A stretch of DNA of 49,246 nucleotides from Alphaproteobacteria bacterium (GTDB taxonomy: Bacteria; Pseudomonadota; Alphaproteobacteria; Sphingomonadales; Sphingomonadaceae), in contig JAUIFP010000012.1 of the NCBI GenBank assembly GCA_030430365.1, positions 1 through 49,246 of the forward strand, read 5' to 3'. The notes beneath the pieces are model-generated. The model worked only from the letters and a program-made list of their open reading frames with translations. It ran no database searches and was not told where the DNA came from. Below, one piece after another: positions 32,581 to 34,626 of this stretch (its first letter is position 1; each line of letters starts with the position of its first letter). The translations under genes and the position numbers were made by a program.

Positions 32581-33423
32581 ATGACGCTCGCCCGACAGAT
32601 CGGTTCTGCCTTCGCGCCGCTGGTGGACCTGGTCTATCCGCCGCGATGTCCGCTATGCGGCACCGGTATCGCGGCACAGACGGGCCTCTGCACCGATTGC
32701 TGGAGCGAGCTGGTCATTCCCGCCGAGCCATGCTGTGCGCGGTGCCAGAGACCGTTTGGCGAAGGAGAGGGCACCGATGGCACGATTTGCGCCCCCTGCC
32801 TGGCTTCCCCGCCTCAGCATGATGGGATTGCGGCGGGGACGCTCTACAACGACGCCTCGCGCAGGCTGGTGCTCGCCTATAAGCATGGCAAGCGGATTGC
32901 CCTGGCGCCTTTGCTGGCACGCCTGATCACGGCGCGGTTGCCCGCTTGCGGCGATCGCTGGTTGGTCGTTCCCGTTCCGCTTCACAGGGTGCGGCTGTGG
33001 CGCCGCGGCTTCAATCAGGCCGCGATCCTCGCTCAGGCCATTGCCCGGCAGACCGGGTCCGATTTACTGGTGGACGCACTGGTTAGGCGCAAACCGACGC
33101 CAATCCTGGGCGGGCTCGGCCGCAAGGCGCGGGCGAGGGCGCTGGCGGGCGCGATCGCGGTCTCTCCTGCCCGGGCGAAGCAAATTCGCGGCGCATCGGT
33201 GCTACTGGTTGACGATGTCCTGACCAGCGGGGCGACGAGCGAGGTTTGCGTCCACGCGCTCAAACGGGCTGGCGCCCAGAAAGTTGTCATAGCGTGTTTC
33301 GCCAGGGTGCTGGACGAGGCGCTGGATGCCGCAGGCGATATTGCCGGGCACGAAGCAGCGCCTCAGAACGCACCGCCCCAAAACGCGAAGCGCCCGGAGA
33401 TTGCTCCCCGGGCGCCCACGTGA
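32581..33423 (+). CDS. ComF-family phosphoribosyltransferase-like protein
   Basis: This 280-residue protein has an N-terminal double zinc-finger-like region with Cys pairs CPLCG, CTDC, CCARC and CAPC between about residues 23 and 73. The phosphoribosyltransferase domain follows, with VPVPLHRVRLWRRGFNQA and the PRPP-binding VLLVDDVLTSGAT. In competent bacteria ComF is linked to DNA uptake, while in many others the role is unknown. The ATG at 32581 was chosen because it begins the conserved region; the frame is open 33 codons further upstream into the promoter zone. The last codons overlap a GC-rich hairpin. Confidence 0.88.
   Translation: MTLARQIGSAFAPLVDLVYPPRCPLCGTGIAAQTGLCTDCWSELVIPAEPCCARCQRPFGEGEGTDGTICAPCLASPPQHDGIAAGTLYNDASRRLVLAYKHGKRIALAPLLARLITARLPACGDRWLVVPVPLHRVRLWRRGFNQAAILAQAIARQTGSDLLVDALVRRKPTPILGGLGRKARARALAGAIAVSPARAKQIRGASVLLVDDVLTSGATSEVCVHALKRAGAQKVVIACFARVLDEALDAAGDIAGHEAAPQNAPPQNAKRPEIAPRAPT
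33390..33415. terminator. GC-rich hairpin overlapping the 3' end of comF
   Basis: GCGCCCGGAG (33390-33399) faces CTCCCCGGGCGC (33404-33415), giving a ten-pair stem with a two-base bulge and loop ATTG. It encodes the last residues of ComF (RPEIAPRAP). Only a short ATTTT lies about ten bases downstream, so termination efficiency is uncertain. Confidence 0.45.
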
Positions 33424-33737
33424 CGATTTTGCTTAGGCCGGCGCTATGGCGCTCTTTGGCATTACCCCTGCAAATGCCGGGCCTAATCCCTCATTTTTTT
33501 GCCGATGACCTCCCGTCCAGAGTGTCACCGATACCCCCTATTCCTTGGCGTCCAGATGGCGCACCCGGTTGTGGCGGGCGGCCTCTTTGTGTGCCGCAAT
33601 CGTCTAATCCCATTGAAACCTCCGGACCGGAAGTGAGTTTGCCCGATCTCATGGATTTTGGCTCCAATCTGTGGTTATCCTGCAACAAAACGGGCCGATT
33701 CCGGCACTTTGAACACATAATTTGAAGGAAGCTTACC
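33424..33737. other. intergenic region between comF and hisI
   Basis: No gene is called. The first 60 bases can fold into a multi-branched structure: AGGCC (33435-33439) with GGCCT (33480-33484) outside, GCGC (33441-33444) with GCGC (33449-33452), and GGCATT (33458-33463) with AATGCC (33473-33478). Seven T residues follow at 33494-33500. A minus-strand frame at 33491-33739 (82 codons) has no recognisable product. The rest, up to the hisI leader, shows no promoter I would trust. Confidence 0.4.
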
Positions 33738-33788
33738 ATTTCTGCGAAGGATCAAGATGCTTCTGCCCGGGAACAGGGCGGAGAGTTC

Positions 33789-34121
33789 ATGCCGAAGTTC
33801 GACTCTTCCGGATTGCTGACGGCTGTCGTGACCGACGCCGATTCCGGGACCGTCCTGATGGTTGCCCATATGAATGCGGAAGCTGTGGAGCTGACGCGCG
33901 AAACCGGGATGGCTCATTTCTTTTCACGCAGCAGGGGGCGCCTTTGGAAGAAGGGCGAAACCTCCGGGAATGTGCTGACGGTGACGGAGATTTTGGTCGA
34001 TTGCGACCAGGATGCCCTGGTGGTGAAGGCGAAACCTGCGGGGCCGGCATGCCATACCGGCGCGGTGAGCTGCTTCTACCGCAAGCTGGGTGATAACGGG
34101 CTGACCCCGGCATCAAGTTGA
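33789..34121 (+). CDS. hisI: phosphoribosyl-AMP cyclohydrolase
   Basis: This enzyme opens the purine ring of phosphoribosyl-AMP in histidine synthesis. From the ATG it is 110 residues with [18 protein letters not shown], the metal-binding DCDQD near residue 72-76 and [15 protein letters not shown]. However, the frame continues upstream as AREQGGEF before MPKFDSSG, and alphaproteobacterial HisI proteins normally have this conserved EQG-x(2-3)-P-(R/K)-FD stretch. No ATG, GTG or TTG occurs there; the only plausible codon is ATT at 33738, with AAGGA eight bases before it, giving 127 residues. GGAG also precedes the ATG. hisE is not adjacent. A MerR gene follows after 31 bp. Confidence 0.88.
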
Positions 34122-34135
34122 CGCTTACGTAAAGG
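34118..34135. promoter_or_regulatory. candidate MerR-family operator with -35 element
   Basis: The 18 bases TTGACGCTTACGTAAAGG include the hisI stop codon and contain a near-palindromic core, CTTACGTAAAG, reminiscent of sites for LiuR-type MerR regulators. TTGACG could serve as a -35 hexamer. It lies 17 bases before the merR start, a position suited to autoregulation. Identity as the regulator's own operator is inference. Confidence 0.4.
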
Positions 34136-34152
34136 GAAGTTACCAGAGTGGT

Positions 34153-34626
34153 ATGTCTTCTGCTCAGCCAGGCAGGGTAGTTTCCAGTGACCGGACGGGT
34201 GCGCATCTTGACCGTCCGGACACGCAAGGGCGCGAACTCTATTCCATTACCGATCTGACCGCGGAGTTTGGCGTAACGGCCCGGGCCTTGCGTCACTATG
34301 AAAGCGAAGGGCTGATCGCGCCGCACCGCGAAGGCCTGTCACGGATCTATTCCAAGCGCGACCGGGCCCGCCTGGCGTGGATCATGCGGGCCAAGAATGT
34401 CGGCTTCAGCCTTTCGGAAATTCGCGAGCTGATCGATCTCTACGATCTCGATGACGGCCGCGTGGAGCAATGCCGCGTCACCATCCTGCGCTGCCGGGAA
34501 AAAATCGCGAAGCTGAAGCAACAAAAGTCAGACATTGAGAGTTCCATAAGCGAGTTGACCGATTTCGTAGCCCATCTCGAAACGCTTGATTTAGGCTCTG
34601 ACAACCGGAAAACCGGCAGCGGCTGA
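34153..34626 (+). CDS. MerR-family transcriptional regulator, LiuR-like
   Basis: This 157-residue regulator has a winged-helix MerR domain at about 28-100, opening with YSITDLTAEFGVTARALRHYE and its RxYxxEGLI element. A coiled-coil dimerisation helix at about 108-145 (VTILRCREKIAKLKQQKSDI) follows. There is no Cys-rich metal-binding C-terminus, so it is not a metal sensor. Position 16 bp before an acyl-CoA dehydrogenase gene fits the LiuR-type group that controls acyl-CoA and branched-chain amino acid catabolism. The first 27 residues are a disordered extension. A matching palindrome lies just upstream. Confidence 0.86.
   Translation: MSSAQPGRVVSSDRTGAHLDRPDTQGRELYSITDLTAEFGVTARALRHYESEGLIAPHREGLSRIYSKRDRARLAWIMRAKNVGFSLSEIRELIDLYDLDDGRVEQCRVTILRCREKIAKLKQQKSDIESSISELTDFVAHLETLDLGSDNRKTGSG

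Follow-up and report, generated by a model that had tools for sequence, protein, structure and literature searches.

Genes that prefer non-AUG start codons have reportedly been surveyed by Gvozdjak and Samanta, in an arXiv paper of 2020, and the AUU start of the Escherichia coli gene pcnB is said, from work by Binns and Masters in 2002, to limit translation. As far as the available part of that account goes, pcnB resembles the hisI gene described here in being a single gene with an AUU start, and differs from it in that gene and lineage are unrelated and that for hisI we only infer a limit on translation.

According to the part of the source available, control of non-canonical starts by initiation factor IF3 is established for infC, the gene of IF3, and for sigR of Streptomyces, whose start had been misannotated in the genus (PMC5472188). 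Like hisI, sigR keeps a non-canonical start within a genus, with IF3 as the policing factor, a role presumed for hisI; unlike hisI, it has a GTC start and encodes a stress sigma factor, and its repression by IF3 was shown by experiment (PMC5472188). In Staphylococcus aureus, the starts of cvfC1 (AUU) and ccpN (AUA) gave, in the portion of the report at hand, a reporter output of about a tenth of that of AUG in poor medium (PMC13009471). These genes share with hisI conserved non-canonical starts with strong Shine-Dalgarno sequences; they are different genes from a different phylum, and their starts were mapped by ribosome profiling (PMC13009471). According to the accessible text of PMC5472188, the characterised genes with non-canonical starts are very few, and gene finders take ATG, GTG or TTG for granted. 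A change from AUG to AUU was found, in the accessible part of another study, at 1 of 61,358 reconstructed AUG starts (PMC5622118).

Here, hisI in the window (the whole stretch of 49,246 nucleotides that was analysed) is compared with its counterparts in the family and the order. The open-licence PubMed Central literature yielded no paper describing an ATT start for hisI.

Materials and methods

A total of 235 hisI loci were gathered, of which 55 came from searches of genomes, 100 were further stretches and 80 were named loci. After L187, which lies at a contig end, and 13 duplicates had been dropped, 221 distinct loci were kept, a set biased to the nearest relatives of the window and including one or more loci from other families of the order (L030). 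Duplicates gave names to two loci, L042 (Croceicoccus estronivorus) and L043 (Altericroceibacterium spongiae). Coded and named genera were not matchable, and some named loci may sit in coded genera. Two hisI matches on viral contigs were left out of the set, and plasmid records held distant hisI only (8 records, 60-80% identity).

Loci were termed forced when the stretch from codon -32 to codon -3, counted from the conserved PKF, held no ATG, GTG or TTG. Loci were called probable where a canonical codon was present but had no Shine-Dalgarno sequence, lay far upstream, or fell inside the conserved N-terminus. A rule-based start call with energy thresholds flagged 39 loci. By eye, L019, L021, L144, L151, L221 and L231 were rejected as ATT/ATC starts, each having an ATG close to the ATT/ATC, and L052, L053, L122 and L185 were added beyond the rule-based call; the weakest of the probable loci are L052, where an ATG lies two codons further 5', along with L053 and L185. 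For L125 and L154, each with an ATG close to PKF, the rule gave no start call.

Results

The window was shown to carry a complete hisI gene, flanked by a comF/gntX-like gene and a MerR-type regulator, one on each side. Its product is HisI by NCBIfam NF000768 (148.7 bits against a cut-off of 126, residues 7-117 of 126). The features of the locus are as follows; duplex energies were computed with an assumed 3' end of 16S rRNA.

33723..33725, + strand: in-frame TGA stop, which bounds any upstream hisI start (translation)
33725..33731, + strand: Shine-Dalgarno-like AAGGAAG, the end of AAGGA lying eight bases 5' of ATT; duplex -6.1 kcal/mol
33738..33740, + strand: putative ATT start codon, next codon TCT (Ser); ATT/ATC called as start in 37 of 221 loci
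33738..34121, + strand: hisI (phosphoribosyl-AMP cyclohydrolase) coding sequence as read from ATT, 127 codons and a TGA stop (translation, NCBIfam NF000768, comparison)
33789..33791, + strand: first in-frame ATG of hisI, within conserved F-M-P-K-F-D; possible secondary start; duplex -6.6 kcal/mol
34119-34121, + strand: hisI stop TGA (direct reading)

The MerR-type regulator lies directly 3' of hisI (window 34153-34626) and resembles ZntR, at 60.2 bits, far under the cut-off of 143.

The preliminary description of this DNA had proposed that hisI may start at the ATT at 33738, and the details on which it built were borne out by direct reading. After the TGA at 33723-33725, the frame continues AGG AAG CTT ACC ATT (33738) TCT GCG AAG GAT CAA GAT GCT TCT GCC CGG GAA CAG GGC GGA GAG TTC ATG (33789) CCG AAG TTC GAC. 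The segment is thus in frame and opens after the stop, no ATG, GTG or TTG occurs in it between 33723 and 33789, and AAGGA (33725-33729) precedes the ATT by eight bases. The RNA fold of the hisI leader scored z -0.39, and Rfam returned no match at E up to 1 over window 33400-34200.

With a completeness of 78.5% and 163 contigs, the window genome is a fragmented draft, so a sequence error at the ATT had to be excluded. A hisI match was found in five of six genomes of the genus, the window's own included, and not in the sixth, G003. In all five loci, the aligned position holds ATT followed by TCN; it lies 16-18 codons ahead of PKF and is preceded at 9-10 bases by AAGG. Around its start, one of these loci is identical to the record 'Sphingomonadales bacterium 63-6' (L003, L160). 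Four of the five have Leu in place of the Met of the window's MPKFD, and the inner ATG is absent there. A recent mutation to ATT, or a misassembled normal ATG, as the draft state might suggest, is hence extremely improbable, given the ATT in four other genomes of the genus and ATT/ATC in nine further coded genera, some in genomes listed with one contig, e.g., G131 and G216 (ATT) and G191 (ATC). The sequencing error that had been named as a possible refutation was accordingly not borne out, and the proposed ATT start was upheld by the five hisI-bearing genomes of the genus and by its recurrence, as ATT or ATC, in other genera.

Among the 221 loci, a canonical ATG, GTG or TTG was present at codons -32 to -3 before PKF in 201 and missing in 20, namely the window and 19 others. 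Every one of these 20 forced loci carried an in-frame ATT (16) or ATC (4), preceded at 7-9 bases by AAGG. Where a locus has a canonical codon, ATT and ATC together make up 50 of 2311 N-terminal in-frame codons (2.2%), and only 6 of 184 loci outside the ATT/ATC set have AAGG 6-10 bases upstream of an in-frame ATT/ATC, so that the agreement of the forced loci is far beyond chance, even when only genera are counted. This spacing of AAGG was also found in 14 of the 17 probable loci, which were assigned by judgement and which, with the 20 forced ones, make up the ATT/ATC set of 37 (31 ATT, 6 ATC). The codon after ATT/ATC was TCN in 34 of the 37, a tally helped by the author's choice, since candidates followed by TC, GC or CC were favoured where a locus held several ATT/ATC; 12 forced loci showed just one ATT/ATC in the region inspected, and there the next codon was TCN in 10 and GCN in 2. 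Furthermore, the mean Shine-Dalgarno energy was -5.7 kcal/mol in the 37 ATT/ATC loci against -3.9 kcal/mol in 177 of the 184 canonical ones, seven having no candidate (p 3.5e-5, a value that ignores relatedness).

The six loci outside the set with AAGG before an in-frame ATT/ATC were L062, L069, L148, L167, L170 and L198; in L062, L069, L148 and L198, the in-frame codon pair is ATT-TCN with AAGG 6-10 bases ahead, and these four could be additional ATT starts. CTG was considered as a common start and rejected, as only L060, L075, L081, L129, L196 and L207 of the 20 forced loci have a CTG in frame immediately ahead of the R-E segment.

Thirty-two of the 37 ATT/ATC loci fall in ten of 62 coded genera, and the other five in Novosphingobium (L196 and L207, the latter from Novosphingobium lentum), Erythrobacter (L185), Croceibacterium (L197) and an unclassified member of the Sphingomonadales (L202). 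With probable calls included, five coded genera are wholly ATT/ATC (g1 5/5, g83 4/4, g54 2/2, g88 5/5, g67 4/4), and five are mixed (g15 6/11, g9 2/3, g109 1/2, g100 2/4, g117 1/6). The putative AUU/AUC start of hisI, conserved in part of one bacterial family, is thus wider than a single locus. In two sister families of the order, a canonical codon was present in the same range in 32 of 33 loci, and in the remaining locus, L284, an ATG stands upstream of that range. On a hisI tree of about 110 residues, with the N-terminus left out, the start state changes at least 17 times, a rough count that cannot tell gain from loss, against a mean of 34.7 and a minimum of 32 in 100 shuffles. The start state is therefore inherited, but has been swapped repeatedly.

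This exchange, with ATT/ATC and canonical starts side by side in g15, g9, g109, g100 and g117 and at least 17 changes on the tree, is what would be expected of a weak start without regulatory meaning, where little HisI is needed, the Shine-Dalgarno sequence is good enough, and the codon drifts among ATT, ATC and ATG. Such drift is a serious possibility, though we hold it to be rather less than an even one. It sits poorly with the finding that all 20 sampled loci of the five uniform genera have ATT/ATC, probable calls included, though one base change gives ATG, and with the rarity of AUG to AUU changes elsewhere, at the 1 in 61,358 given in the available part of PMC5622118. Some use of the weak start is suggested by the retention of ATT/ATC in five coded genera, and tolerance by its exchange with canonical codons in others.

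The segment upstream of the first ATG was next compared as protein. Among the 37 ATT/ATC loci, E is present in 37, G in 36 and F in 37, each encoded by differing synonymous codons; of the 123 loci outside this set that have F at -2, E was found in 98 and G in 95. The conservation that the preliminary description had claimed for this segment therefore stands, and its counter-case, relatives with no conservation before the Met, fails, as E, G and F are kept.

These observations bear on whether the window hisI instead starts at ATG 33789, giving a protein of 110 residues, with the upstream segment a relic or weakly read from ATT. The two sites are about equally good by duplex energy (-6.6 for the ATG, -6.1 kcal/mol for the ATT), and Met at the inner place is enriched, occurring in 21 of 37 ATT/ATC loci against 31 of 123 other F-x-PKF loci (p 0.0006, not corrected for relatedness), as is expected if the ATG is sometimes a start. 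In seven of the 20 forced loci (L054, L067, L073, L107, L132, L196, L207), it is not the ATT/ATC but codons -3 to -6, immediately ahead of the inner place, that have the strongest Shine-Dalgarno-like stretch; two of these loci, L054 and L067, have no inner Met. In addition, the PDB homologue 1zps aligns from query residue 19 onward only, so that the short form could fold. Set against these points are the conservation of the preceding segment as protein and the absence of the Met in four of five loci of the genus and in 16 of the 37 ATT/ATC loci, six of which are forced. In 14 of the 16 Met-less loci, the six forced ones among them, the next ATG, GTG or TTG comes only 7-22 codons into the core, and in the other two, L002 and L003, a TTG occupies the inner place itself. 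Over all loci with the inner Met, moreover, those of the ATT/ATC set show no better Shine-Dalgarno sequence before it than do those that start ordinarily further upstream (medians -4.1 and -3.6; p 0.94). A start at 33789 alone is accordingly improbable.

The use of both starts, with a long form from ATT and a short one from ATG 33789, at least where the Met is kept, would agree with the two equal Shine-Dalgarno-like sites in the window, the enrichment of Met, and the strong inner sites of some relatives, e.g., L073. The 16 ATT/ATC loci without the Met indicate that a short form is not needed family-wide, and we regard dual initiation as unlikely, though less so than initiation at 33789 alone. 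The comparison thus supports both the position assigned to the start codon and the conservation of this codon, and AUU 33738 is very probably the main start of the window hisI.

Two further genes were examined in parallel. The hisF gene starts with ATG (25) or GTG (2) in 27 of 27 genomes, which cover 27 of the 37 ATT/ATC loci, and never with ATT/ATC. For infC, a conserved ATA behind AGGAG was found at the expected start in 14 of 14 genomes searched (L239-L252), and ATA would be the infC start in these genomes; IF3 itself is present in all 14 (Pfam PF05198 over cut-off). In the infC locus of the window genome (L246, contig C144), a TGA stands four codons before the ATA. An ATG or TTG several codons downstream is also present in most of the infC loci; L244 has none.

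Upstream of hisI, a further conserved element was noticed:

33654..33688, + strand: promoter-like element GATTTTG-N9-TGTGGTTATC-N-TGCAACAA, with the 18-mer TGTGGTTATCNTGCAACA conserved across loci

This block ends about 50 bases 5' of the ATT. Within 330 bases upstream of PKF, its 18-mer was exact in 87 of 221 loci and present with at most two mismatches in 118. The window genome holds one copy at up to two mismatches, and 63 of 199 family genomes have it at up to one mismatch, twice in G149 and G202. A reversed control pattern gave no match among the matches listed, and in the 33 loci of the two sister families the 18-mer was absent at up to three mismatches. The element occurs in 37 of 37 ATT/ATC loci as against 81 of 184 others, an excess that may be due to shared ancestry. 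Around the element, written as GATTTTG-N9-TGTGGTTATCNTGCAACAA, further blocks stand at fixed spacing, CCAT near 33610 and AAG near 33631.

The spacing could fit a promoter, with GATTTT as -35, 16 bases, TATCNT as -10, and a transcript start near 33688. A standard promoter scan found no promoter at the element, and the consensus RNA fold of the upstream element over 110 sequences was empty. For a plain promoter, so high a degree of identity at just one gene is unusual. In L064, L085 and L100 (G370, G390 and G076), the nearest canonical in-frame codon before PKF lies inside the element, as ATG or GTG followed by CAA CAA, which conflicts with the promoter reading there.

Discussion

Initiation at AUU 33738 could proceed by ordinary means. 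The usual initiator tRNA would decode the codon as formyl-methionine, with the Shine-Dalgarno sequence AAGGA setting the place, and the third-base mismatch would be tolerated thanks to that sequence. Several genera of the family would then have a weak start, AUU and sometimes AUC, as the settled condition of their hisI. By comparison with AUG, AUU most likely lowers hisI initiation several-fold, and if IF3 destabilises AUU complexes, the yield of HisI would be low and would follow IF3. This part of the mechanism, a lower yield with dependence on IF3, is drawn from known cases, and we consider it fairly probable, with appreciably less confidence than the position of the start. The earlier suggestion that ATT is a sign of tight regulation, as in infC, is likewise plausible by analogy.

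In the 14 genomes searched, AUA appears to be the start of infC itself. Like hisI, this gene would have a near-cognate start behind a Shine-Dalgarno sequence; unlike hisI, it forms a feedback loop on IF3 itself, whereas hisI encodes a biosynthetic enzyme, and we know of no role of hisI in translation. One might go further and suppose that hisI and infC form an IF3-policed set in this family. Selection would then have kept AUU/AUC because it ties the cyclohydrolase step of histidine synthesis to the supply of free IF3 and ribosomes, alongside an unusually conserved promoter dedicated to hisI. This proposal is speculative and is more likely wrong than right by a wide measure; if true, it would be a direct translational link from the initiation machinery to one amino-acid pathway.

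As gene finders assume ATG, GTG or TTG, the HisI proteins of the family are probably annotated with a wrong N-terminus. Beyond annotation, hisI would represent a metabolic enzyme with a weak start that is kept in whole genera and absent in neighbours. With ATT, ATC, ATG, GTG and TTG all occurring at this one gene, it would form a natural series for testing what weak starts cost, what they are used for and what part IF3 plays in them, and hisI may thus serve as a new natural example of start-codon policing by ribosomes.
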